Assembly (NCBI GenBank): GCA_023105745.1
Contig: JALGQZ010000011.1
Location: 47,894,698-47,958,697 of the forward strand
Source: Austropuccinia psidii
Taxonomy: Eukaryota; Basidiomycota; Pucciniomycetes; Pucciniales; Sphaerophragmiaceae
Reading direction: 5' to 3'
DNA: 64,000 nucleotides
The notes below the pieces were generated by a model, which saw only the letters and a program-made list of their open reading frames with translations, was not told the origin of the DNA and made no database searches. The position numbers and the translations under genes are program-made. The first letter of the stretch is position 1. Every line of letters starts with the position of its first letter. This document shows positions 28,122 through 59,960 of the stretch, in pieces.

Positions 28122-29430
28122 GGGGGGTGTCAAATATGAGAAATCACAAGTTAAAAATCTTGTATTCTTTTTTAATCAAATACTGCTTTTAATTTCTGGA
28201 GTTTTTTAAATACCACACCACAAGAGGCATGATATTCAAAAATCCAAAAACCCATAATCTTAGGATGAATGCCAAGCTTTGAGAACCTCAAGTCCCAAAT
28301 GGATCCTTCCAAATCCCTGATTAATTCTCTTTCCAACCCCACCAAATTCATGTTTTTTGGATTTCAAGTTCTTCACTTGCACAATACCACATGAATGGCA
28401 CAGATGTTTTCTTAGTGGAAATAATAATCCAATCCTCATGGAAAATGTTTTTAATCTGATTTTTAATCTCATTTATTATTCAACTGTACTCAAAAAATCT
28501 ACCATAATTTTATTATTTCAATAAGTCACTGTATTGTAGTATATAGCTGAAATAGTCTCTGATTCTGGGTTTGATCTGAAACTTAAATTATCACATTTTT
28601 ACCATCTTAGTAGTCAAAGATATCTCAGCCCCCAAAATACTAATCCAAAAGCTTATATATATACCCCAGCATATTACGTCCGTTTTATAAGTCACAAACT
28701 CAGACTACTATAGCTAAGGCTCGTATCACATGGCCAAAAATCAAAAATTAAAAGGTAAATGTTATATTTTATGCAATCTAAAGGACTGCCTGGTTGTATT
28801 GGGTTTATTGATGTAATTCTCATACCATTGTCTCATAAAACCCCAAGCCATGGAGAGAATTATTTTTATTGGGAGAGAAGTTAATTTACCTTTGTTTTTG
28901 TCATTTGTTATTTATTAGCTCAAAGTAACTTTTAGATATTTAATGTCCATTCAATTAGTGTGTGACATAAACAACGATTTCATTTCACTTCATCTTGGAT
29001 GTGCAAGCTCACTTCATTACTCAAAGGATATCAGAATATTAAGATTTACAATACCCTTAAATATTTTCATGTGAGATCTTTGTAACTTCTTCTTAACGCA
29101 AAATATTCCAGCTCCCCATGGACTGTACCAGCATGCAAGGTTGTGGCCTGAAGCTTGAAATAGAATGAAATTATTAACCTATTTCTTGCCAGATAAAGAG
29201 TACAAATTGAATATGAAAGTGGCATTCTTAAATTATTGTGGTCATAATTCATGAAAATAATAAATCAAATGCAAAATCTCAATGATGTCAAATCCCTTCT
29301 GGATTGGGTTGTCACATTTGTGATTTTACCTAGCCTTTTGGTATGTTTTGGGGACCAATGGATTGAGTTATATGAAGAAAAGCATCCACTTAAAATAAAT
29401 GATGTTTTTGATGTGGATGATAAAAATTAG
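28122..29430 (+). mobile_element. H3: decayed PIF/Harbinger element with left terminus
   Basis: The left end GGGGGTGTCAAAT (from about 28122) matches the termini of H1 (GGGGGTSTCAAAG). The subterminal part ACCACACCACAAGAGG (near 28210) matches the position with CACACCTCAAGAGG in H1 (near 53719). A transposase remnant follows in the same orientation as in H1. No right terminus was found before the Ty3-B insertion at 29684, so the element is truncated or its end is eroded. Confidence 0.6.
28775..29430 (+). pseudogene. PIF/Harbinger DDE transposase relic (H3)
   Basis: Pieces in changing frames follow the H1 transposase. LPGCIGFIDVILIPLS (near 28785) is the first Asp block. SIQLVCDINNDFISLHLGCASSLH (near 28950) matches SIQLVCNINKQFTALHVGCTGSLHD. 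WVVTFVILPSLLVCFGDQWIELYE (near 29306) matches WVVSCTILHNMLSQIGDAWFDLYE. An intron seems to lie between the first and second pieces, at the position of the H1 intron. The Asp after SLH is replaced by Tyr, and several stops interrupt the frame, so it is dead. It would have cut and joined DNA at terminal inverted repeats. Confidence 0.7.
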
Positions 29431-29487
29431 CACCTTAAGTTGCATAAAAATATCAATCCATTCAATTGATATTGACTGAAAAATGGA

Positions 29488-44005: not shown

Positions 44006-47000
44006 ATACAAATTTCTTCTTTTGTTACTTAGCTTGTAATCACCATGAAAAAAATCTATTCCCACCAGCAAGAATAGAATGTCCAAGCCAGCTTCCAATT
44101 TGCTTCATACTTTTCTCTAACCTGCTATTAATATTTGGGTATATTCCAAGCAATATTTTAAATATTTTAAAAACATCTAGATAAAATAAATTTAACTATG
44201 TAGAATCTGCATTTTTTAATAATCTCACATTCCACACAACTCCTCAAGAACAAAATAAACAACTGGAACCCCAAAATTAATTTAATTTTCTCACATTATC
44301 ACTTTTTGTATCACTTTAAATCAAATTATATTTCTGGCTTTTCACTTATCACCTGGAACTATTTAATTAAATTTTGACATTATCAAACATGAGGTAAAAT
44401 AACAACATTTCGATTTTGTGAGATCCTCATTATCAGTACTCCTCGGTCCTGAGAATGGAAAAAATACATATTTTTTATCCTGTCTTTTTCCTTGAACCTT
44501 ACATTATTCTCATTGAATTCAATTTAATTTCAATAAAAAGATGTTACCTCCTTTTTATTTGAAAATAATTTTTTGAATTCAGTTTTCAATTCACAATAAA
44601 AAAATTCTTTTGAAAAGAAATATTTATTGATTATAATTTTTGCTTCCTCTTATCCCTCTATAATCATTCTATCTTTCAACAATTCAAGGGATTATGATAA
44701 CTTCCTTTCCAAAATTCCTAATTTTAACACTTTCACAATTCTTCCCCCTCATAGGAATACCTTAACAATCTTCATTTATTTGAGCCACCTGTCTTACTAT
44801 TTATCATAACACATAATAGGACCATAACCTTTAAAGTAAAATTCTTTACTAAAATATCTCCTTCACTACAGATTACTTGAATTTAACTATATCATTAAAG
44901 ATAAAACTCATAATATACCAATATGGTGAGGAAGTAACCAAGAATTTCTTTTATAAATAAATCTTCTTCATATTTTCCAGAAAAAAATCAAGCTATAATA
45001 TATATCTTAAAACAGAAAAATGTGATTAAATTGCCATTTATTTCTCAAAAATGAGATGTATTTTGAATGCAATATTTTTTCCTTAATCTTGTTCATATGA
45101 AAAGGGGTGTTAATTAAAATGGAGATATTAGGTTGTCTTGATTTAATTCAAAATATCTGGAAATGGATTCTGAATTTTGGAATGGCTTCAACTTCTAATC
45201 AAAATGAAGCACTATTTCAATAATAATTACCTTTTTTCAGTAGGGAATTTTAGATATCCAACATTTAATTTCCTCAAATATTGTCATCCATATTTCCTTT
45301 AGTTCTGAATATTCATTTAAAAGGCTTTTTCTCCATGCTTCATTTTTTACTCATTTTAAGGCAATTAGCAATTCGAGGTTAGCTTTTTGACGTTTCTCAT
45401 TCAAAGTTTCCGAAAATCTATTTCTCAGCTCAAATAGCCTGTTACCTCAAATACATGACTTTATATGGATATTCAGGAATACTATACCTGGAATATAAGT
45501 AATGGTCTCAAAACATTGAATTCACCACCACATAAATCTACATAAACTCATATTATTCATGAATAACACTCAGAAACTTTCTAAAACTCTTAAATATGGA
45601 TTATTCATTTAGAACAGTAATAGTTAATATAATCTGGAAAATTCCCACAATTAACAAAGCTTCAATTAATAATTCATTCTGGATTCCTGTTCTTTAAAAG
45701 ATTTGTTGATTGTAATTTTTGCCAATAACTAAGCTCAAGCTAATATTAAAAAAAATTAATTTCAAAAATTTTCCTCAATTAAGAAAGTGGATTATTTTTT
45801 TGAAAATCTACTTGATTATATTTCCGGCTATACACAAAATTCAAACCAAGGGAAAAATTATCAAAATTTAAAAATTCCCCTTAATTAAGAAATTTTCAAC
45901 TAATACTTCATTCCAAATTTCCACTTTCTTCAATTTTCCTTAATGATATTTCTTAACATACACCACGCTCAAATTGATGGTCTACTGGTCAGATTCAAAG
46001 AATTCTTCTTAATTTATAAAGCTATAATAAGTAATATGTGTGATATCTATTTTGTAAAATAAAATATAACAGAAAACTCAAAAACATTTTGTAGTTTATT
46101 ATCATAGCTTTACTTAAAAAAGGAACAAAATCATTTAATTCATTCTTCTCTGTGGTTCTCTGATCCCTTTGTTGTTTATTTTTTAAATAAATTTAATCTG
46201 AAAAATTAAACTCGAGTATTAAATCTTTCAAAAAAGGGGATACTAATGAATATTTTGAAGAGAAAATTTAAAGAATATAAATTGAAACAATTTAATCAAT
46301 TTTTTCATAATTTGGAAATCCCTTTGTTTCATATTTCATTTGGTTTTCTCTTTGTATTTAGAGTCTATTTATTATTTCTCACTTTGTCTTTCCTTTCATT
46401 TTTTATGCTTCTTTTTGGAAGAATTTTTATCTCAATCTTATATCATTTGTAATATATAATTTTTTTAGTTTTTTTGGTTTTTTCTGCTATTCTATTTATT
46501 TTATTTTATTTCAATTTTAATTTTTTGTATTCAATCATTTATTTTATTCATTTTCTTATTTCTTTAATTTATTGATTTAATTATATTTTGTTTCAATTTT
46601 TCATTTTTTTTTTTTGATTTTCTAACTTTTTAAGGGTGCTGGTAAAAGCACATTAGGTTTTGGTAACTACACATAAGTGACACAATTTTTTGAAAAAAAT
46701 TACCCAGAATTAGTTTTGAGGAATTTTTTTGCCATATTTTTTCCAATATGGGATTTCAAGATTCCCAAATTTTTTCAACTTTTTTTTTTTGCCTAATTTC
46801 TTCAAAAATGACTTATTGTTTGAAAAATTAATTGAAAAAAAAATTTCCATTTACGAATTTCCATAAATTCTTTTTCGAAATTAAGAGGAGAATCATTAAA
46901 ATCAAAAATCTAAATCCTATATTCATGGTAATTCTGTTTGGGTGGGACAATGGTAGGCCCAAAAAAGTGTTTTTTGTATTTTTGTTGTTCATTGCCATTT

Positions 47001-48900
47001 ATGGAATCAAAAACAATTCTATTTATGGAATTAACAGTTTCATAATTTGTAAAAAAAATTGGGGGTGCTTGGAAAGGTTTTGCCCAATACAAGTTGATTT
47101 GGTTTCATTTTAATTGGAAATGGGTCCAGGGTACCCATTACATCTTTTCACTTATTTATGGAAAAAACACTTAATTTTTTAGTAAAAACACATAAATGCT
47201 TACAAATGTTTACCAAATCCTATCTTTTATTCTAATTAATATTAAAGTTTATCCAAAACCATCAAAAAATTAAAAAAAAATCCAAAATAAACTCACAAAA
47301 AATTCAAAAATTTTAAAAAAAGGAATCAAAGGAAAATAAAGCAAAAAATTCTAAACTAAAAAAAAAGAAAAAATAAAAATAAGAAATCAAAAAAAAAAAA
47401 AATTTTATATTGAAATGGAATTTCTTCCTATGTTAATTTCTGATTTTTTAATTTTCCAAAAATCCCAGTTTTAAATCTTACAAAAATTGAAAAAATGAGA
47501 ACTTTGTGAATGATGAAGAACATTACCAATGAAAAAATAATTTTTGGAAAAAATTTAATGGGGAAATTTTTGTGAAAGTTGAATAATTATAGAAGAAATT
47601 TATTGAGTTTAACTAACAGAGAGTAAATTTTAAAATTACTTGAATATCAAAAAATAAGTTTACATAAATTTTAAAAGAAGAATTAAGGTATAGTGTAAAA
47701 ATAAGATATAAATATTAATAGAAAAATCTTTGAAATAAAAGTCTCTGTTATTTCAAAAAACATTGAGAAATATATCAAATAATTCTTGAAATATTATGAA
47801 ATGTTTACACAAAGATACTATATCTTTTTAAAATAAATTAGAAGTTTAAGATTTTCCCCCAAAGAATTTTTGGTGATTTTTGTATTTGGAAATAATTTTT
47901 CAAAAGAATTATTTCTAAAAGACTAATGAGTTTTAAATGTGAAAAAGGAAAAAATAAATTTTAATAAGATATAAATATTTTCAGAAGAAAAAGGGCAATT
48001 TATTTTGAATTAAGAAAATAAAAACAATACTTTACAAAAATAAATATTAGAAGTAGGTGGGTGTTTTAAGTATTAAATATTTCTCTTGGAAAATATTCAA
48101 GCCTTGTGATATCTCTTTTCAAACTTGTGTAAAATAAATGATAATAAGGAAAATTCACAATTTTAAATCTGATTGGGTTGGAAAATTTCAAATCTTTAGA
48201 ATAACTATTGGTTTTATATTTTATTTTTGATGAGAAATAATTTGAAGATTTAATTTTCTCAATTGTTTGCAAATAAAAAATAGTTTAATTTTTTTTAAAT
48301 AGAAAAATAAAATTCAAATAATTGACATTTATTCATACATTTTTGTGAAAAAAAAAATTCTGTTAAAAGGAATTTTCAATCAGGAATATATTTTATATTT
48401 TTTCATTTTGAGGTTTATATGCTCTTAATGAGCTCAGAAATAAAAATCATTGAAGATCCATAATTTTCTACTTTGATTGAGTAAAGCTTTCAATTACCAA
48501 ACATGTGGCTGAAATTATCTGCAGAAAAATATTAAGGTTAGAACCAGGGTCGGATCTCAGGTTGAAAGCAGGTTTAAACTTCTACTCCTTCCAACAGGGA
48601 TATCCTTTTTTATTTTTAATGTTTCCAATTCCTATCTTTCTTGGAATAAAATTTTGCTTCAATTTAATGTGATGTTAAATCCTGCTTTTTTTTCTGATAT
48701 TCAATAAATCTTTGTTGATCTTAAAAGTAAATCAAAAATGGGTCATTCCAGGATTCTTAATTTATTAATGGCAGGGGTTTGGTGAGCTAACGTAGTAATG
48801 TAGATTTTTTCCAAAGTATTTCAATAATAAAATCCTTTTCAGACAAATAAAATTGCAATTTTGGCTGAGGAAGAGACAAACCATGGCAAGAGGGTTGACA
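44006..48900. other. AT-rich DNA without recognisable genes
   Basis: No credible coding frame. The frame at 46246-46452 is dominated by Phe and Leu codons from T-rich DNA. A strongly T-rich block (46440-46620) and a strongly A-rich block (47250-47410) lie in inverted relation around about 600 bases. The transposase expected for H2 would lie in the right part of this stretch but could not be recognised. Confidence 0.5.
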
Positions 48901-48939
48901 TATTGTTTTGATTGGTTTATATTTTCTTATTCATAAAAT

Positions 48940-49260
48940 AAAAAATTCCAGAAGTCTAAATTTTGAATTCTTTCTTCTCCATATGAGGCTTATTATGGAA
49001 TCTATCCAAAGAGGTGTGTCATTTCTATTCCACTTGACTAAAATTTGGCAATTTACATTATTTCCTAATATCTTGCATTTTTCTCAGTGCCTTCTTTGAT
49101 TATTAAATGAATTAATTTATCAAAATGTTAAATTTAGGCTCATTATTCATCATCCTGATTGATATCATCTTGAGTTAAGCCTTCTTTAATGGCGTACATC
49201 CCTTCATAATTTTCAGAATCAGGGCCTTAACAGAATCTAATACCCTTCATAGTTACTTCT
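48940..49260 (-). pseudogene. Tet-like 2OG-Fe(II) oxygenase relic (H2)
   Basis: On the minus strand, KLPNFSQVE (near 49060) corresponds to QLPNFSQLKW of the H1 gene. The stretch with TTTTCAGAATCAGGGCC (49208-49231) and CCCTTCATA corresponds to 55988-56033 of H1, which encodes GIMKGIGF and SGPDSGK. The order and rough spacing are the same. The iron-binding core (HKD) is not recognisable in this copy. The H1 intron at 55921-55979 appears to be missing or eroded here. A non-functional fragment. Confidence 0.55.
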
Positions 49261-49366
49261 AGGATATCCTCACTGTTCTTTATTTTCTGCCTATTTTTGG
49301 AGAGCTTGTTCAATGTAAACATTAGTCTATTTTTTGATTTGTAGTTGTTTTTTTCTAATTGGAGGG

Positions 49367-50126
49367 ATGGATTTGATAAGAAATTATTGGGAGATAATGT
49401 TTTTCATGTTTATCAATGATGAAATATGGAAGAGGAAGAATTCTCTTTGTATGAAGTCTAATAAAGGTGGAATCTGGATCCTTCTTTTTGGCTAATTAAA
49501 CTAGAGAGAATTCCTTGTGATCTTGTTCAATATTTGTTGCATTTTTATCAATTAAGCTTAATTGTCTCCCTTGGGTTCTGGTTCAAAATGGGGGGATGGG
49601 TTTGTATGATTGAAACATATCATATTGGAAATCAAAAGGATGATCAGTTTGACTCCCACCATTAATAGTATCATTAGATTTTGAAGTGATTGGAATTTAT
49701 TGTTTAATATAATTGAAAAGTGATTTATTAATTGAATCACTATTATATGGATTTGATAAGAAATTATTGGGAGATAAGGTTTTTCATGTTTATCAATGAT
49801 GACATATGGAAGAGGAAGAACCCTCTTTGTAGGAAGTCTAATAAAGGTGGAAGTGGGATACTTCTTTTTGGCTAATTAAACCAAATAAAAGTCCTTGTGA
49901 TCTTTTTCAATATTTGTTGCATTGTTAGAAATGAAGTTTAATTGTCTCCTTTGGGTTCTGGTTCAAAATGGGGGGTTGAGTTTGGATGATTGAAGCATAT
50001 CATATTGGAAATCAAAAGGATGATCAGTTTGAGTCCCACCATTAATAGTATAATTGGATTTTGAAGTGATTGTAATTTATTGACGAATATAATTGACAAG
50101 TGATTGATGAATTGAATCACTATTAT
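49367..50126. repeat. Tandem duplication of a 380-bp unit
   Basis: Unit 1 (49367-49746) and unit 2 (49747-50126) both begin ATGGATTTGATAAGAAATTA and end GAATCACTATTAT, with scattered substitutions and no obvious length change. Each unit gives a similar minus-strand frame ending CFNHxNxxPHFEPEPKGDN, but the frames look like chance products. Confidence 0.85.
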
Positions 50127-51749
50127 CAAATACTTGAGTCCAACAATCCAAATTATAAGAGGTTTCCGATTGGAAAGTTTTGTTTTGAAATTGAGTGAGG
50201 ATAGAATTTATTTCAATAATAGAAACATCATTTTTAATATAAATTACAAGCCCAAAAACAAAATTCCTCCCATAAATTAATAAACACAAAAATAATAGAA
50301 AAAATAGAATGATTAATAAAGTCAGCTTGATAATCATTAAAAAACAAATATTTAAGAAATATTAAAAAATAAGGCATGGATTATCATTATGTTGGTTGAA
50401 AGGGTGTAAAATATAAGATGAAAGATTTATATGGGCTAATTTGAACTTAATAAATATTGATTAGAAAAAAATATAGCTTATCAATACTTTGAGGGAACTG
50501 TGAAAAATTATTAAATATTTCTTTCAAATCAATTAGAAATAGATTACTAATAATTATTAGGAATTTATTTAGAATAAAATTCTAATTTTTTTGATAAATT
50601 AACTAAGAAGTTTAAATAAACAATTGAGGTGGATGGTTAATAAGGGAAATGATTAGGTGGGTTGAGAGGTGTGTGCAGTAGTTAAGGAGGTGGTTTGAAT
50701 ATGAAATTAATTATAAATAAGTTGAATTACCTATGATACCCAAAAAAAAAGAATAAGAAAATATATAAAAAAAGGTCAATTATTTAATACTGAAGAGGAT
50801 AATCATACCTAGGCAATTAATATGAGGTTAAAGGAGTTGATTTTTAGTGTTTTTAGTTTCAATTTCTGGGGTGATAGATGAAAAAAATAAAAAACAAACG
50901 ATAAAAACTCTATGATCTTTGAAAAAAGGGTGTAAAAAAAATCAGTATGTATTTTTATTAAGTTGAATCAGATGAGATAAATTTTCCTGAAAGACTCAAA
51001 ATGAATAATGAATAATTTAATTCTGAAGAAATTGAAAATAATTTGAGCTGAGAAATGTAAAATTATTCTCTTTTTTTTTTGTTGTTTTCTGATTGCACTA
51101 AGAAAAAAAAAATTAATATTTTTTTGTATTTTTATGAATTTGAGTTTGAAAGAATTTTTAAAAAAAAATTGATTGATCTCAAAGATATCAGTCATTTTTT
51201 TGATTTATTAAAAACAAAAAAAAATAATTCCAAATTAGAGCCTGAAAAGAAATCCATTCAATTGAGTTGATTTTGGAAACTTTCATTTTAATTCATTCTT
51301 TTCAGCTAATACCCCCAAAAAAAACTTTTGATATTTTTGAAGTAAACCAAATGCACATTTAAAATCTATTTAAATTGATAAATGATATATCTTATTGAAA
51401 TAATAATTCAAATAATTCTTTTTCTTTATTTTTAGACTAATTTGAGTCACTAATATACATTTTTAAAGTAAAAAATTGACCTTACTCATTAATATCTTAC
51501 TTTTTTTTCCAATACAAAGAGAACAAAAAGGCCACATTATATGAATTGGGATCACATTTCACCCTTCCACGCAGCTTTGTGAAACATTTAATATGTAAAA
51601 CTGCTAAATAAATGTCAAAAAATTTCATTCTTGTGAAATGACTATCAAATAATATCAGTTTATGAACCCAACCTATCATACCATCCAGGACCTAATGAAT
51701 GACTTACCAATTCATGTAGACTGAAAAATGAATGTCAGGATGAATTTCA

Positions 51750-52870
51750 CTTCCACAAGTTTTTTTTAAGAATCTAATTCAGAAACTGTCAAATCCATAG
51801 TATGTTGCTCTTTTTGTAACCACAACTCTTTATCCCATTTTCCTTGTTCAAATTTTCATGTATCCATATTTTTCACATTTTCAAAATATGGTTTAATTTC
51901 TTTCAAAAGCCTTTCCTTTTCATGTTTCTCCGGGCAGACTTTTTTCCCTTCAATCCACTTCTATTTATCTCATTCCAAGAAAGCATGATCAGTTGCCTCA
52001 TAAGCTAACATGAAAGACCAAAATTATGTTTCTAAAAAAATTCCTTACATTTTTTCCAATTTTCAATGAGCTTATGATATGTTGGAGAAAGTAAATAATT
52101 CATCTTCTTTTTTTGACCCACTTACCCCATTCAAATTGAAGCTGGACCCCCACTTTCTCTTTTGGTATGAGCTAATTTCTATTTACCATAACTACATAAG
52201 CAGAAACCACAATCAATACAGCCCAATCAGCCTCTTAATCAACATGATGATTATATTGATCTATATCTGCTGTGATCATAACATTTTATTCCTTGGTGAC
52301 CATAGATTCCTAAATCACAAAGCTCAAGTCATATCTAAAAAGTCTTTTCAAGCCTAAATGGACTTACTTACCTAATCATTTTGAACCCCTTCCTTGACTT
52401 CAGTTAAAATCACTTCCTCAACCTATTGTTAATCATGAATGGCCAGTGAAGCAAAATTTGGTTTGTGACCAAAAAGCGCATAAGTCTTGGGAAAATATGG
52501 ACACATAATCTCTCACTTTTCAGCCATAGTATGGATTCACATTTTCTCATCTTCTTGAGTGATTCCCACTCCAGTTAGGTTTTCAAGCTTCTTACCTGTG
52601 GAATATTTCTTCCTAAATATATGCTATGTGTGATGACTACTAGCAGATCTGAGATTCAATTGGTGATGGGATTTCTTATTCACCTCCATAGCCATCAGGT
52701 GAAAACCATTTTTGTACTCTCAAGTGGCCTTCTGATGAATTTTGAGGCACTGCTCCCAAAAACATGTATTAATTTTTGATTTATTAGTGAGCCAATTTAC
52801 AATACATAAGTAGTCTGGTCAAGTTAGAGGGCCACAGGGATGTAAGAGACTTAAGCTTTCTTTCATGGTT
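51750..52870 (-). pseudogene. Harbinger accessory gene relic (H2)
   Basis: On the plus strand the blocks CCAGTTAGGTTTTCAAGCTT (near 52571), AGATCTGAGAT (near 52647), ATAGCCATCAGGTGAAA (near 52689) and TTTGGTTTGTGACCAAAAAG (near 52459) correspond in order to blocks at about 59031, 59083, 59145 and 58915 in H1. The last encodes FGHKPN in both. Many stops interrupt it. The C-terminal coiled-coil part may continue to about 51750 (Trp- and Glu-rich stretches on the minus strand), less certainly. The apparent plus-strand frame 52079-52357 is a shadow of this relic. Confidence 0.65.
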
Positions 52871-53589
52871 GATTATTTTTGCTTGATGGAATGGCATGGG
52901 ATTTTGAGTAATAAAGTTTCATTTAAATATTTTTAGAAGGGTGTATGTAAATAAGAAATTTAAATGATACAGTCAATGGCTTGTGGGAATTGATTGATTA
53001 ATTTTTTGGTAGAAGGGGTTAGGTTTCAATAATAAATAAATCTTAGGTTAGTTTTAAGCCTGGAAATCCCATCACTTGCTTTTAAATCAAAAAACCTAGG
53101 GGACTACATCAAAAAAGTGCAGGATTTATAAGCTAAAAATGTGGGTTATTTATATGGGATTTAGGCCCTAAGTCCTGCATTTTTGGGGTTTATGATTTTG
53201 TATAATTGACACCACCTAATATTTAAATTAATTTTTTTTGAACCTTCATTTATTAATCTTGATAAGAAATGAACTTTTAATTAAAAGCTTGAAATAAATC
53301 ACTATTTTAATTAAAATACTTTCTTTAATATAAACCAAAAGTGCTGAATTGTGCTGTTTTTTTGAATTCTCTCTATTAATGATTTTTGAATAAGTCTCTT
53401 TATTAAATTAAGTATATGATATTAAATACAAATATATAATTTTGCTATGGCTGATATTTTCGTATCTCCCAGCCTCAGAATATGTTGAACTTCAAGCGCC
53501 TTCCAGAAGGTATGGCCATATTTCTTATTGGTATATGGTTCAAAATGATTCAATTTTTTCCCCATTTATCTCACTTCAAGAAATGAAAT

Positions 53590-53624
53590 TCATCAATTAA
53601 GCTAACCATTCCTTTACCAAGATT
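53590..53624 (+). pseudogene. H0 transposase, left fragment at the H1 insertion
   Basis: Encodes SIKLTIPLPRL, which lines up with AIQLAVALSRLG of the H1 transposase and continues at 59608 with GLNGDGEALYKTG. The final ATT (53622-53624) is the left copy of the 3-bp target duplication made when H1 inserted. Sequence further left is too decayed to place. Confidence 0.7.
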
Positions 53625-53652
53625 AGGGGGTCTCAAAGTTACCAAATCCCAC
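53625..53652 (+). repeat. H1 left terminal inverted repeat
   Basis: Starts AGGGGGTCTCAAAGTTACC. Pairs with 59577-59604. The subterminal region to about 53820 is rich in AAATCCC and GGGATTT phrases that also occur near the right end. Confidence 0.85.
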
Positions 53653-53944
53653 ACTCAAAATCCCAAGTTTTTTTTTGCCAACTTCCTGCATTAATTTCTT
53701 GGGATTTCAGAAATCCCACACCTCAAGAGGTGAGGTATTTTGAGGTACAAAAACCCAGGTTTTTTGGTACCAAATCCAGTGTTTAAATACTGAAATCCCG
53801 CCTTTAGCTTCCCATAAAGGGACATGTTTCAAACACACAACTCAGTAAGGGCATGTTTAATTGCATAAAATCTCAATAAACTCATCATTTACTAAGTTAT
53901 TTGATTTCAAATTGCATTTACTACAAGCCTTTTCTTCATTTACC

Positions 53945-55191
53945 ATGCCCAAGGCATTGAAAAGGCTACCTTTACTTCAGACCTTGAACTCACTGCAGTT
54001 CATCGATGCTCTCAACTCTGATAGTGATTCTTATATCCAGGAAGATATAATCTTATTAGATATGATAAAATCACAAAGATACATCAATCCTCATAGAAGA
54101 TATCCATCACATTACATGTATACAATGAATGATTTACAGACATTATCATCTGAAAAGTTTTGACAGCTATGTAGGACCACACATGAATCATTTGAAAAAT
54201 GGGTTGCACAAATTCAAGCTGATAAAACCTTTCAAAAATCATCACAAAACAAACAATGCACTCCTGCCATCCAATTGGCTGTGGCATTATCAAGGCTAGG
54301 ATCAAATGGCAATGGGGCCACTTTGGGAAAGATTGGAATGTTGTTTGGAATTAGCCATGGGGCTATTGTGTTGTACACTCAAAGATTCATCCAGATATTA
54401 ATGAAGCTGAAGCGCAAAGTGATTGTGTGGCCAACAATAGAACAACGAAGAGAGATTTCTCAAGTAATACAAGCAGAAGGCTTCCCTGGGTGAATTGGGT
54501 TTATTGATGGGAGTCTAATACCATTAGCACAACGTCCTCCCAATGATGGTGAAGCCTATTTTGATTGCAAAAAGAGGTAAGCTGTTGAATCTTCATTCTT
54601 TATTTCAATTTTACTGATTGTTTACAAATAAGGTATGCTATGTCAATACAACTGGTTTGCAATATCAACAAACAGTTCACTGCGCTACATGTTGGTTGTA
54701 CTGGGTCACTTCATGATTTGAATGTCTATCAACATATGAAAATAGCACAAACACCTCAAGAGGTTTATGAAAAGGATCAGTACTTACTTGCAGATTCAGC
54801 ATATGCAAGCTCTCCTTGGGTTGTTCCAGCATATACGGGAGTTGTAGCACAGAATGAAGACAACCATTCTTTCAATTACTGTCTAGCAAAATCAAGGGTC
54901 AGAATTGAGCATGCAATTGGAATTTTGAAGGAGAGGTGGTTTTCTCTAAGGGAAATGCAAAATCAAATGAGGGATAATCATGAAATCGAATATTTTGTTA
55001 GTTGGGTTGTGTCTTGCACAATTTTACATAATATGTTATCACAAATTGGTGATGCATGGTTTGATTTATATGAAGATGATGATCCACCACATGCGGAAAA
55101 TCTGGCCAACAACGACATTGGGGAAGAAGTGGTAAATATGCATGAAAAAATTAAACCAATCACTTTGGCTTGGAGAAATAGTCAATTGTAA
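53945..55191 (+). pseudogene. PIF/Harbinger DDE transposase (H1), two in-frame stops
   Basis: Cuts and pastes the element at its terminal repeats; family known as DDE_Tnp_4 or Harbinger nuclease. ATG at 53945 (MPKALKRL). Helix-turn-helix-like part: LSRLGSNGNGATLGKIGMLF then ISHGAIVLYTQR. Catalytic blocks: IGFIDGSLIPL (Asp 54506-54508), HVGCTGSLHDLNV (Asp 54715-54717), YLLADSAY (Asp 54793-54795), RVRIEHAIGILKERW (Glu 54907-54909). One intron, 54577-54632 (56 bp, GTAAGC to AAG), joins KKR to YAMSIQL in frame. Breaks: TGA at 54161-54163 and TGA at 54491-54493, the latter where relic H3 reads Cys (GFPG-stop-IGFIDG against LPGCIGFID). Otherwise full length. Confidence 0.88.
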
Positions 55192-55379
55192 ATTTCATCA
55201 GGACTAATGTTTTATGTACTTAATTTAATGGCATACAACGGAGTGGAGATGTTATTCATAAAATAAGACTATTTAAAATTAATATTTTTTAGTTCTTTTT
55301 TGATCCTGCATATTTCTTGCAGAGGACCCATTGACTCTTGAATTAACTTTGGTGGGTGTTATTTTCAATAATTTTTCAC

Positions 55380-56439
55380 CTACATTAAATAATTTAGGTT
55401 TATTTGAAAAGAACACCCAAAATGAGTAATTTTGTCATGACTGATAATTTCTGGAGGTGGTTTTGTTGTATGATGAACCATTGTTGATGTCTTCCAAAGA
55501 ATTTCCATGATGCCAGGTTTTTTTGAAAAATCAATCTCCATTTTCAATTTGGGGAAGTGCAAGCCATGTCCAGAGGGGGTGGATGGAAATCTTTTTTTGA
55601 TAGAAAAGAAAATATACCATAAGTCCAGGCATTGAGATCATTTGAATCTTTGTGTGGCTTATTGAAAAATCCATCTTGGGGGACAATGAAATTGATAAAT
55701 GATTTGAATTCTTCCTTGGGCTTGGCAGAAGTCCATTTGAGTTGACTGAAATTGGGTAATTGGGCTGCTTCCATTAATGATTGATTTTCATTTTCTGCTA
55801 ATTTTGAAAAATGGGAGATTCTTGAGTAAACAAATTCGTCATATTGATGAAGCTTTATCCATTGATTGTTATCTGTTTCAACTTGATGAGGAGTTAAACC
55901 TGGTTTTCTGGAGTAAACACCTAATAATTTTGTAATTAGTCAGTAATTATTAAGGTAATAAGCCAAAAATATCACACACCTGCAGATTTTCCAGAATCAG
56001 GACCAGATCAAAACCCAATACCTTTCATAATGCCACCTTGGAGTTGCTTATTGGTTTTAATTTCTTGTTGATTTTGAGATAAGGACATTAATGTCTTGAT
56101 GATTTTTTGCAGCATATGAGAGTGGCCAGAGGAATTATCAAACAGGGTTATTTCATATATGATGACAGGAAAAAAGGGCTTTGTGGTTCTATTAATGAGT
56201 ATATAAGGATGGGGGAGAGTTTTAAGTGATGGAATTTTTAACCATGAGGCATTGACAGATTTCTGGTCAATCGAAATTGCTGAAAAGTTTTTAAATTCTT
56301 TCTTTGAATGGCCAAGGTGAGACATTATTTGTTTTGAATCATGGATGTGTTGTCTTTGGCTTTGGGTGAGCTTTCTTTTATGATTTGATTTGGTATTATT
56401 ATCCTCATGATGTTCTATATTTGGTTTAGTCCTAACCAT
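55380..56439 (-). pseudogene. Tet-like 2-oxoglutarate/Fe(II) oxygenase carried by H1
   Basis: ATG at 56439 (MVRTKPNIEHHED). A basic segment KRKLTQSQRQ and PHPYILINR are followed by GIMKGIGF. The core holds GFFNKPHKDSNDLNAWTYG with the iron-binding HxD (HKD, 55646-55654); about 58 residues on, EILWKTSTMVHHTT supplies the distal His (55470-55475), and THFGCSFQIN closes the fold. This is the wording I recall for rust proteins annotated Tet-like 2OG-Fe(II) oxygenase (not searched). TET/JBP enzymes oxidise 5-methyl bases in DNA; the substrate here is unknown. One intron, 55921-55979 (59 bp). Breaks: TGA at 56008-56010 and a frameshift near 55580 (FHPPP to GHGLHFPK). A frame upstream repeats the VRTKP phrase (VRVRTKPDSAHH), suggesting a small internal duplication. 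Confidence 0.75.
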
Positions 56440-56599
56440 GACATCAAGAGGAGCAATAATAACTTCATCATCTTTCAAATCATTCTGATGATGTGCTGAG
56501 TCTGGTTTAGTCCTAACCCTGACATCATCAAAATTATTGGAAGATTGAGAGAGAGGATGAGCATTTTTTTGAATTTTAAGGATGATGGAAGGGGTGGGA

Positions 56600-58150
56600 A
56601 ATTAAATGACATTGCAAAATAAATCTTTATAATTAATCCTCCCCTATATGAACAAATAAATCAAAAGGTTAAACAAAAATTAAACTAAAAAATCAATCAT
56701 GGGTCAGTAATGATTATAATCCAAAAACAAAATACAGCAGGTCAACATGATTATGATTTGAATGAAAAAAAGACAAAAAAAACCCATAAGTGATGGATGA
56801 TAATCATTATAAAAGAAAAAAAACATGGTCAGTAATCATCAATTATTTTTCAAATTAAATAAATGAATAAAAATAAAAATAAAAATAAAATCAAAGAAAT
56901 GATGATTAGAGAAAAAAAAATAAATCATGATCAGTAAATCATTTTTCAAATTAAATAAATGAATAAAAAAAATTAAAAGAAATGATCATTAGAGAAATAA
57001 AAAATAAATCATCATCAGCAATTTATTTTTCAAATTAAATAAAAGATTAAAAAAAAATGAAAAAATCATGCTAATGGCCTCTGGGGGCCATTAGCATTGA
57101 AAATAAATAAAAAGGCTCCAAATCGATTTGGAGCGATTAGAAGAGGCTAGGCCCTGGAACCTCCCAGGAGCCTATTTGGGAGGTTCCAGGGTGAGTGAGG
57201 TGGAGTTATGAGATGGGTGGGGGGTTTTGGGAGGTGGATGATGATTGATGATGGTGATGGATGGGTGAGTTGTGGATGATAATGGATGATGATGATGATG
57301 GGTGGGTGAGTTTGGGAGGTGCAGAAAAATGAAAAATTATAAAAGAAGAAAAAAAAATACCTATAGAAAACAAAAATCAGGTTAGAAAAAAATAGTAGTG
57401 GTGAAACAAAAAGAAGAAAAATTCACTTACCTGAATTTTAAAAAAGGTGGATTTTTTTTAGAGGGAGGGGTGAAAAGTAAAAATAGAAAAAAAGAAATTG
57501 AGATTTAAGAATTAAAATTAAAAGAAACATTAAAAAAAATTGGTGAATTTCTTTTAAGAGGGAGGTCTGAAAAGTAAAAATAAAAAAAAAGTGAGAATTA
57601 AGATTTGAAATGAAAAAATAAAAAATAAAAAAAAGGTGTTTTTTTTTTAAATTGGAGGGGTGAAAAGTAAAAATAAAAAGTAATAATTTTAAATAAATTA
57701 AAGAAAAAAATCAAAAATTAAGAATTAAAAATCCAAAATCCAAAATACAAGGGAAAATTCCCAATTAAAAGCTGAAACCCTTCAAAATAAAAAATAAAAA
57801 TTCACCTTTAAATCAAAAAAAACATATAGAAAAATATGAAAAAATATAAAAAAAAACAATGAAATGACATTTTCATAAAAAAGGAAAAAAGGCATCCTCA
57901 AATTTGATTTTTGAACAGACTTCATATCAAATCTCAATGAAAAACTTGCCCAGATTTTCAATTCTGTCCTAAATTGGAAATAAATGTCATATGAAGGTAA
58001 AATGGCAAGTTGGTGCCCCAATTATGCATAAACATTGAAATTTCCATTTTGTAATGAAGTGGAGTTAGATTTCTGACATAAGACCAATAACTAAACATAA
58101 AAATAAGATTTATTGAACAAGCACCACATATAAATGGATCACATTGCATA
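56600..58150. repeat. H1 spacer: AT-rich tandem repeats around a G-rich hairpin segment
   Basis: No gene. Three copies of an 80-100 bp unit (phrases TTTTCAAATTAAATAAATGAAT or near) start at about 56822, 56926 and 57004. Three hairpins follow (57068-57191), then a GGTGG and GATGAT-rich stretch (57200-57320). Three further copies of a 93-bp unit with GAGGGAGGGGTGAAAAGTAA-like phrases start at about 57448, 57541 and 57634. Confidence 0.8.
57068..57191. repeat. Cluster of three perfect hairpins
   Basis: Hairpin 1: ATGCTAATGGCC (57068-57079) pairs with GGCCATTAGCAT (57086-57097), loop 6. Hairpin 2: a perfect 20-base palindrome at 57115-57134 (GCTCCAAATC and its complement). Hairpin 3: CCCTGGAACCTCCC (57152-57165) pairs with GGGAGGTTCCAGGG (57178-57191), loop 12. 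They lie in the middle of H1 between its convergent oxygenase and accessory genes and the transposase side. Confidence 0.9.
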
Positions 58151-58161
58151 TATGTAATAAG

Positions 58162-59359
58162 TTATTTTTTATTGATTAATGCCAGAATGCGTTCCAGCTC
58201 CCCAATTGGCCTGCTTGATGACAATGCTGCTGTAGTGAGATCTGTCTGGCATTGCTTTCCCTTCAATTCCAATTCACGAATCCACTTTTCTTTTTCAAAT
58301 TCATATTTCTTCGTATTTTGCCTCTCCTCAAACTCCATTTGCTTTTGCAACTTGACTTCTTCAAACTGTTGCTTGCTTTCTCTTCATTCCACCTCTCCCT
58401 GTCCCACTCCAAACAAGCATTGTCACTGGTTTCACAGGCTATGAATCATGACTTTTGTCAGTAGTATTGATAAGAGTAACCATAAATACTAAACATACCC
58501 TTTTGCCGTGATTCAAGCAAATTTACATATGTTGGTGCAAACATATCCATCGGCCTTTTCCTAGAGCCACTCTTGTCATTCAAGTTGGTTGTCAATGCTT
58601 GATTACGCTTTTGTGTTGAATGCATTATGGATTTACTTTGCTGTTCAAAGGAGAAATAATCAACAATGGATTTCATAAGTATCAGGCTTAGACGTACTTA
58701 CTGATTCATCTTGAAGGTTTTCTGCTTGAACCAAAGGATCCAGAATGTGAGGTAAATCCAAGCAATTATTCTCCTTTGAAAAGCAAATGACCTGTAATTA
58801 TCTGAGGTAAAAAAAGGAAGAGACAATAACTTACCTTATCAAGCAAAACATCATCATCATCACCATTGAAACTGTCTTTTTCTTGCAAATCATAGCTTGC
58901 AATGGGAGTGACATTGGGCTTGTGGCCAAAGAGCTCATCCATTTCCACATAGCAAGGACACATACTTTCCAGCTTCTCACTCATTGATTTTATTCCTTTA
59001 CTCTCATCTTCTTCCGTTATTCCAGCCCCAGTTAAATTTTCAAATTTTTTTGCTGCCATATATTTCTTTTTATATGTTCACCATAGATCTGGGATGCTGC
59101 TTGAACTAAGGTTTAGGTGATTTTGTGATTTTTTGTTGACCTCAATGGCCATAAGCTGAAAGCCATGCTGCTTTGAGGAAGGAGGTCTTCCAATAGATGT
59201 TGAACCGCTAGTACCAAAACATGACTCAAAATTGGATTTGACTGAAAGCCAATTAATTATGGTTAAATAATCTGTACATATTAAGTGACCTGATGGATGA
59301 GGCAGGCCAGAGGTGATCTTCATATCTGTCTTGATTTGTCTTGCTTTGGATTGAGGCAT
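58162..59359 (-). pseudogene. Harbinger second protein (DNA-binding/accessory type) of H1
   Basis: Starts MPQSKARQIKTDMK (59359). The first part (YLTIINWLSVKSNFESCFGT to DLW, then TYKKKYMAAKKFENLTG) resembles the Myb/SANT-like or trihelix domain of Harbinger partner proteins. An acidic region and DELFGHKPNVTPIASYD follow, then a basic KRNQALT to KRPMDMF segment and a C-terminal coiled coil (KQMEFEERQNTKKYEFEKEK). Three introns join in frame: 58792-58834 (43 bp), 58641-58701 (61 bp), 58439-58498 (60 bp). Breaks: TGA at 59078-59080 between DLW and TYKKK, and a frame change near 58390. The partner protein normally helps import the transposase and binds the termini; inferred here from family and position. 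Confidence 0.7.
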
Positions 59360-59576
59360 TATTATATGGATGAAGAAGTATAAATGGACTGTAAGCTGTT
59401 TGGTCAGATTGTCCAAAATGGAGTGTAGAAGAATATGTTGTGCAGGTATGAATTGTGAGTACTCATTTGGGTTAGGTTTCAAGCTGAAATCCCAGATGCA
59501 TGGGACTTGGTCAAAATACCAGGGGACTCAGTTAAAATGCCATGGGATTTACACATAAAAAACCCGGGATTTAGTG

Positions 59577-59604
59577 TTGGGATTTGGTGACTTTGACACC
59601 CCCT
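59577..59604 (-). repeat. H1 right terminal inverted repeat
   Basis: Ends CTTTGACACCCCCT, the complement of the left terminus with two mismatches, followed by the second ATT copy of the target duplication (59605-59607). Confidence 0.85.
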
Positions 59605-59960
59605 ATTGGGATTAAATGGTGATGGTGAAGCTTTATACAAAACTGGAATTAGTTTTGGAGTCAGTCAAGGCAAAATTAGTTTATATACCCATCAAATTAT
59701 GGTATTTCTGTTTGAATACAGGAACTAACTCATCAAGTAGACAAATTTAATTAAGAGAAGGGAAGCCTTGGGGATTTTGAAGCAAGAGGGGTTCCCTTGG
59801 CACAGACTAGCAAAAGATGGCAGAGAATACTTCACCATGAAAAGGTCTGGCTCATGAACTTTATTCCAGAGCTAAGTTTGGCTAATCCACAGGTTTATTC
59901 TGATATCTTACATCTGGGTTGCACTGGTGTAATGCATGATTTGACTACTTGACCAATGAA
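59605..59960 (+). pseudogene. H0 transposase, right fragment
   Basis: Continues the H0 frame from 53624. GLNGDGEALYKTGISFGVSQ (from 59609) lines up with GSNGNGATLGKIGMLFGISH of H1. Then ALGILKQEGFPW corresponds to the EGFPG region, LAKDGREYFTMKR to NDGEAYFDCKKR, and LHLGCTGVMHDLTT to LHVGCTGSLHDLNV. The FIDG block with the first catalytic Asp is missing, and the pieces are in different frames. An old, dead transposase. Confidence 0.7.

Follow-up and report, generated by a model that had tools for sequence, protein, structure and literature searches.

Harbinger transposons that carry a TET/JBP oxygenase gene have recently been described in rust fungi. Kojima (December 2025; PMC12730594) reports 15 such families, named PHISTA, from six rusts including Austropuccinia psidii; the group is defined by TA target-site duplications, and its third protein is without Myb/SANT. 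That paper further describes capture of oxygenases by seven transposon lineages in rusts and a PU-type tree in which oxygenases move between transposon superfamilies, and it proposes that both methylation silencing and hypermutation are escaped (PMC12730594). Here we describe an element at positions 53625-59604 of a 64,000-nucleotide (nt) stretch of A. psidii DNA (contig C11:47894698-47958697, hereafter the window), with copies sought across 84 contigs comprising 1,015,390,075 bases. The element is best explained as a decayed copy of a TET-bearing transposon of the PIF/Harbinger superfamily, of the PHISTA kind. A first-pass annotation of this DNA knew of no description of a Tet-like oxygenase on PIF/Harbinger elements; that view does not stand, since Kojima's paper describes TET-bearing Harbinger elements in rusts, A. 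psidii among them, and elements of this type are therefore already known (PMC12730594).

The likeness to PHISTA extends to a Harbinger-type transposase, a TET/JBP gene within the element, a third protein without Myb/SANT and a rust host, A. psidii itself being among the hosts listed in the published text. Unlike PHISTA as published there, with its TA duplication, the family described here fits a 3-base-pair (bp) AWT duplication better (W, A or T). Canonical PIF/Harbinger elements share with it the DDE_Tnp_4 transposase and, under the AWT reading, a duplication of 3 bp. Their duplication is TWA, however, and the present element also differs from them by its extra oxygenase and by having no Myb/SANT partner recognised by sequence profile. 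The Dileera/Kyakuja/Zisupton (KDZ) elements (Iyer et al., as cited in PMC12730594) are likewise fungal transposons with a TET/JBP gene, but they possess another transposase superfamily, and the Dileera example given there has 8-bp duplications. Analogously, the oomycete HarbingerS elements described in the same text combine a Harbinger-related element with a chromatin-modifying enzyme, which is a SET histone methyltransferase rather than, as here, a DNA-base oxygenase (PMC12730594).

The element and its genes occupy the following positions of the window.

53625-59604: Harbinger-type element with a Tet-like oxygenase, bounded by inverted repeats
53625-53651, plus strand: left terminal inverted repeat, beginning AGGGGGTCTCAAAGT (inverted-pair search)
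53945-54576, plus strand: transposase exon 1, its frame interrupted by stops at 54163 and 54493 in the window copy (start codon and splice site assigned from the sequence)
54577-54632, plus strand: transposase intron, GT-AG (read from sequence)
54633-55191, plus strand: transposase exon 2 with the DDE_Tnp_4 domain (profile match)
55380-55920, minus strand: Tet-like oxygenase exon 2, frame broken in the window copy (PF20515 match and frame reading)
55921-55979, minus strand: oxygenase intron, GT-AG (read from sequence)
55980-56601, minus strand: exon 1 of the Tet-like oxygenase, with an uncertain 5' limit and, in the window copy, a single in-frame stop
58162-59359, minus strand: third gene, conserved in the family, without a recognised domain; in-frame stop at the 59077/59078 frame boundary
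59578-59604, minus strand: right terminal inverted repeat (inverted-pair search)

The matching terminal inverted repeats claimed in the first-pass annotation are confirmed. A pair of 28 nt (53624-53651 and 59578-59605, 93% complementary) tops the region's list of inverted pairs. The sequence TAGGGGGTSTCAAAGT has two exact matches in the window, one at each end of the element, and four when up to three mismatches are allowed, where 0.65 would be expected. Transposase exon 2 matches DDE_Tnp_4 with an E-value of 9.4e-20 (71.3 bits; cutoff 24.8), and two catalytic D residues and an E, in what we take to be the motifs of such transposases, are readable in the transposase pieces.

The identification of the second gene is also secure: its assignment to the Tet-like oxygenases, with an HxD motif and a distal histidine, proved correct. 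The two downstream frames exceed the cutoff of 27 bits for PF20515 ("Tet-like 2OG-Fe(II) oxygenase superfamily"), scoring 56.8 and 27.4, and 29 of 29 aligned relatives match the same profile; this profile search thus gave no indication of a placement outside Tet/JBP. The HxD...H facial triad of TET/JBP oxygenases is present in the window copy, with HxD at about 55646-55654 and the distal histidine at about 55470-55475 on the minus strand. Across aligned rows, the first histidine is conserved in 28 of 30, the aspartate in 27 of 29, and the distal histidine pair in 27 of 30 and 29 of 30. The family has THFG directly after the distal histidine; the histidine of this motif is kept in 29 of 30 rows and replaced by tyrosine in one. 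This is presumably the position at which TET enzymes hold 2-oxoglutarate by an arginine. The intron assignment agrees with a frame change near residues 113-117 of the relative P0144 in all 30 sampled loci. P0144 is an unbroken A. psidii protein of 334 residues that represents a cluster of 20 sequences and matches PF20515 at an E-value of 2.6e-34, and 76 of 77 relatives of the oxygenase exon are labelled A. psidii MF-1. The AlphaFold2 model of P0144 is unusable for judging the double-stranded beta-helix fold (mean predicted local distance difference test score, pLDDT, 39.6). P0190, another and more distantly related Tet-like protein from A. psidii, is 43% identical to P0004 over 98% of that protein; this species therefore has at least two oxygenase lineages.

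The three-gene content proposed in the first-pass annotation stands as regards the DDE transposase and the Tet-like oxygenase, both of which have profile matches. The third gene is real and conserved, with 65 database relatives; its label of Harbinger partner protein is nevertheless unproven, because in profile searches no piece of it scored above the cutoff for Myb/SANT or any other family. Analogously, Myb/SANT was above the cutoff in none of 21 aligned relatives, only three of which hold the whole N-terminal part, and the sole weak match (P0110, E-value 0.089) lies in the C-terminal part. A diverged Myb/SANT trihelix, suggested by the look of the N-terminal part, is without profile support and was rejected. 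For the third protein (P0111), too, the predicted structure is unusable, with a mean pLDDT of 41.3. All three genes of the window copy are interrupted by stops, the oxygenase by one stop together with frame changes, and this copy of the element is dead.

The window element belongs to a multi-copy family. Searching the DNA with the oxygenase region yielded 1,835 first-look candidates, the best 40 of which, window included, scored 89-100% identity; the best 30 loci by likeness of this region, again with the window, form the sample used below. Transposase exon 2 adjoins the oxygenase in the same orientation in 29 of these 30 loci, in full in 28 and over 78% of its length in one, and is absent from L027. 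Among the ten best loci after the window, fetched whole, six have both ends, three only the left and one only the right; among ten further loci for which the ends alone were fetched, six have both, in one the right end falls at the very edge of the fetched piece, and in three the piece contains no right end. Altogether, both ends are readable in 15 copies.

It should be noted that these loci were picked by their oxygenase, and its presence in them is by itself no proof of anything. The exact left terminus, searched genome-wide, occurs at five places, two of which carry the oxygenase: the window and a complete copy on C10 with a large insertion, which is adjoined by a second complete oxygenase-bearing copy. 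The other three are fragments for which no right end was found. One on C9 has the transposase part only, with neither oxygenase nor right end in the next ~12 kb, and two on C1 are left-end stretches of 196 and 37 bases. A complete oxygenase-free element with the family termini was not seen in this small sample. The two older C10 copies have the same gene arrangement at 76-83% identity by pieces; they lie within about 21 kb (G000:C10:26468516-26488889; L009, L010 and L012), one of them being split by the large insertion.

Divergence was compared over 28 loci (L021 and L027 left out) with CpG sites excluded. Mean pairwise divergence is 5.1% in the transposase part, 4.3% in the oxygenase and 15.4% in the low-complexity spacer. 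The divergences of the two genes correlate with each other (r 0.52), a value that none of 2,000 permutations reached. The claim of a Harbinger-type element with its own termini carrying a Tet-like oxygenase is upheld, and transposase and oxygenase recur together genome-wide.

The target site is where this family may depart from the published definition of PHISTA. The relevant features around the window copy are the following.

53622-53624: left target-site copy ATT in the 3-bp reading; 53624-53625 in the TA reading (sequence, flanks of 15 copies and frame of the host gene)
59605-59607: right target-site copy ATT in the 3-bp reading (sequence and frame of the host gene)
53536-53621, plus strand: upstream part of an interrupted Harbinger transposase relic (tblastn of joined flanks)
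59608-59797, plus strand: downstream part of the same relic, with a further short match at 59908-59946

TA flanks both ends of the element. Outside the left-end A and the right-end T, however, every one of the 15 copies has AWT on either side, and the two flanks are identical in 13; base frequencies predict 8.3 identical pairs by chance, and the probability of at least 13 is 0.012. The flanks disagree in L046 and L047, and the termini are altered in L047 and in the second C10 copy. This comparison left out the one-end copies (L048, L050, L051, L052, C12:22866971, C9:47181675 and C7:44379597) and C2:38302158, whose right end lies at the edge of the fetched piece. The window element interrupts an older, decayed Harbinger transposase relic, the frame of which can be used to compare the readings. 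Joined with one ATT, the window flanks give 61.2 bits in tblastn, gapless at the junction and with a three-residue gap upstream; joined as a TA duplication they give 56.6 bits and an extra codon, and without any duplication 49.3 bits and a broken frame.

Joined flanks of seven copies were tried, and usable empty-site relatives, two in number, were obtained for L049 only. The relative in L028 has 14 bases, as counted by eye, for which 16 are predicted by a 2-bp duplication, 13 by a 3-bp duplication and 14 by none; the corresponding scores are 129, 139 and 139 bits. The relative in the window (near 46714-47034) gives 79.2, 80.8 and 85.6 bits in the same order and favours no duplication. Taken together, a 3-bp AWT duplication appears to be the best single reading, although an unproven one, and a 2-bp duplication the least likely.

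The surroundings contain further remains of related genes. Relics of an older Tet-like gene (48763-49962, minus strand; pieces 49962-49750, 49516-49370, 49099-48923 and 48894-48763) and of an older third gene (51727-52902, minus strand) lie just upstream of the element and are 27-53% identical to its proteins by pieces. With respect to the interrupted transposase relic, they are not arranged in the gene order of the element. A further decayed transposase of Harbinger type, at 28513-29460 on the plus strand, shows piecewise identities of 31-68%.

The explanation that we favour, with a probability of roughly 0.62, is a PHISTA-kind transposon whose oxygenase would temporarily relieve silencing by 5-methylcytosine (5mC), the demethylation step being predicted from the protein families. 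The DDE transposase would excise the element at its inverted repeats and insert it at AWT sites, and the oxygenase would oxidise 5mC, both as expected for their families; a newly active element could then be transcribed before the host re-methylates it. The effect of the oxygenase would have to be temporary, and possibly exerted in trans: copies still lose CpGs and many oxygenases are broken.

In its favour are the termini and domains, the recurrence of transposase and oxygenase side by side, their correlated divergences, the codon-model omega estimates given below, the largely conserved metal ligands, the CpG methylation of A. psidii transposable elements, strongest in younger families (PMC12774611), and the agreement with the published group in oxygenase, third protein, transposase type and host (PMC12730594). 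Several points weigh against this explanation. The function of these transposon-borne genes in fungi is not experimentally validated, as Kojima states (PMC12730594). Oxygenase exon 1 is open in 4 of the 30 loci and exon 2 in 4, yet both are open in none; the sample, drawn by resemblance to a broken oxygenase, may over-represent dead copies. The divergence of the spacer is hardly correlated with that of the oxygenase (r 0.15; 171 of 2,000 permutations) and uncorrelated with that of the transposase (r -0.03). This speaks against a common history for the element in its entirety, unless the low-complexity spacer is poorly aligned, as we think. Finally, copies lose CpGs by C-to-T change, mostly at TCG, and this decay is strong in the element itself, where the CpG observed/expected ratio, at 0.150, does not exceed that of the remaining window (0.184).

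The extent of the CpG loss was counted over transposase and oxygenase, in the 2,740 bases with which each of 29 loci begins, L027 being dropped. The 20 columns with CG in at least 30% of copies have TG or CA in 46.8% of cells, versus AC or GT in 6.3% of cells for 85 control GC columns. Transitions by context, in columns with at least 20% CG, number 288 of 550 at TCG, 90 of 269 at ACG, 66 of 216 at GCG and 36 of 147 at CCG. Hypermutation at TCG in Pucciniomycotina is mentioned by Kojima (PMC12730594). Methylation at CpG (5mCpG) has been reported on A. psidii transposable elements, with higher levels in younger families (PMC12774611), and published analyses describe CpG loss with element age (PMC12774611, PMC8063080). 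The copies have undergone strong CpG decay; therefore, the Tet-like gene has not spared its family from this decay in the long run. A brief effect of the oxygenase during bursts may nevertheless have occurred. The suggestion, made in the first-pass annotation, that such a transposon could undo its own methylation silencing finds no support for the present day, given the broken window copy, the complete lack of fully open oxygenases among the 30 loci and the strong CpG decay.

A different view of the same decay is that the oxygenase is a passenger: a gene acquired in a single capture, from which the element that transports it now gains nothing. We consider this unlikely, but it is the most serious of the alternatives. 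It gains from the contrast between the transposase, with exon 2 open in 15 of 30 loci, and the oxygenase, which is never fully open: at least one stop interrupts its frames in 26 loci, and the remaining four are closed by frame changes alone. The oxygenase tree has two subfamilies, and frame changes within exon 2 affect all 13 loci in one of them and 7 of the 15 loci in the other. A one-base gap between HxD and the distal histidine is common to 9 of 13 loci of one subfamily and 0 of 15 of the other, as if the subfamily had spread with a broken enzyme. This gap, however, sits in a base run mostly 7 long; it may have been inherited as the subfamily expanded with a broken oxygenase, or it may stem from recurrent slippage or from errors in sequencing, and these causes are indistinguishable. 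Codon-model omega for the oxygenase core (0.67, 30 loci) is near that for transposase exon 2 (0.63, 28 of the 30 loci, two dropped), with 0.82 (30 loci) for the N-terminal part of the oxygenase, all being point estimates that mix decay and constraint. The metal ligands are largely kept, the unbroken P0144 represents 20 clustered sequences, and the published capture of oxygenases by seven rust transposon lineages argues for use (PMC12730594).

A broader conjecture, doubtful in our opinion, combines two ideas. The oxygenase would be shared among rust transposons, so that broken elements spread on enzyme made elsewhere, with protection confined to bursts and the same TCG-type decay thereafter; and PHISTA would be an ordinary 3-bp Harbinger group whose AWT target has been read as TA.

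It is rather improbable that the enzyme modifies DNA otherwise, acting on another methylated base or by a CMD1-like reaction, and does not demethylate 5mC. Kojima lists CMD1 among the nearest structures and states that another activity cannot be excluded (PMC12730594), and in our sequence searches the oxygenase profile matched no solved structure, while the THFG motif of the family has a histidine where TET enzymes presumably carry their 2-oxoglutarate-holding arginine; yet the family match is to the Tet-like superfamily (PF20515), and the host has 5mCpG (PMC12774611).

Least plausible, to the point of being very improbable, is a separate oxygenase insertion nested in a plain Harbinger element, to which the movement of oxygenases between superfamilies in the PU-type tree (PMC12730594) and the AT-rich inverted pairs enclosing the gene (the longest being 55270-55301 and 57664-57695; 32 nt, 81%) would point, but against which stand the adjacency of transposase exon 2 in 29 of 30 loci, the correlated divergences, the identical arrangement in the two older C10 copies, and the arms of that pair, which are 94% A+T. 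Both arms are present in all six complete copies checked; therefore, this pair moves with the element, and nested boundaries of the oxygenase, named in the first-pass annotation as a possible refutation, are not supported.

To return to the element as a PHISTA-kind transposon with a possibly silencing-relieving oxygenase, the remaining interest of the finding is that the enzyme gives its carrier no lasting protection and is broken in many copies, and that doubt is cast on the TA duplication. The analysis independently confirms TET-bearing Harbinger elements as genuine, multi-copy transposons, here in a species for which 5mCpG data have been published, and it puts figures on the protection that the enzyme might give to its carrier, which in the long term is visibly absent. 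The question of whether a transposon-borne TET undoes its own silencing is thereby made directly testable within one genome.

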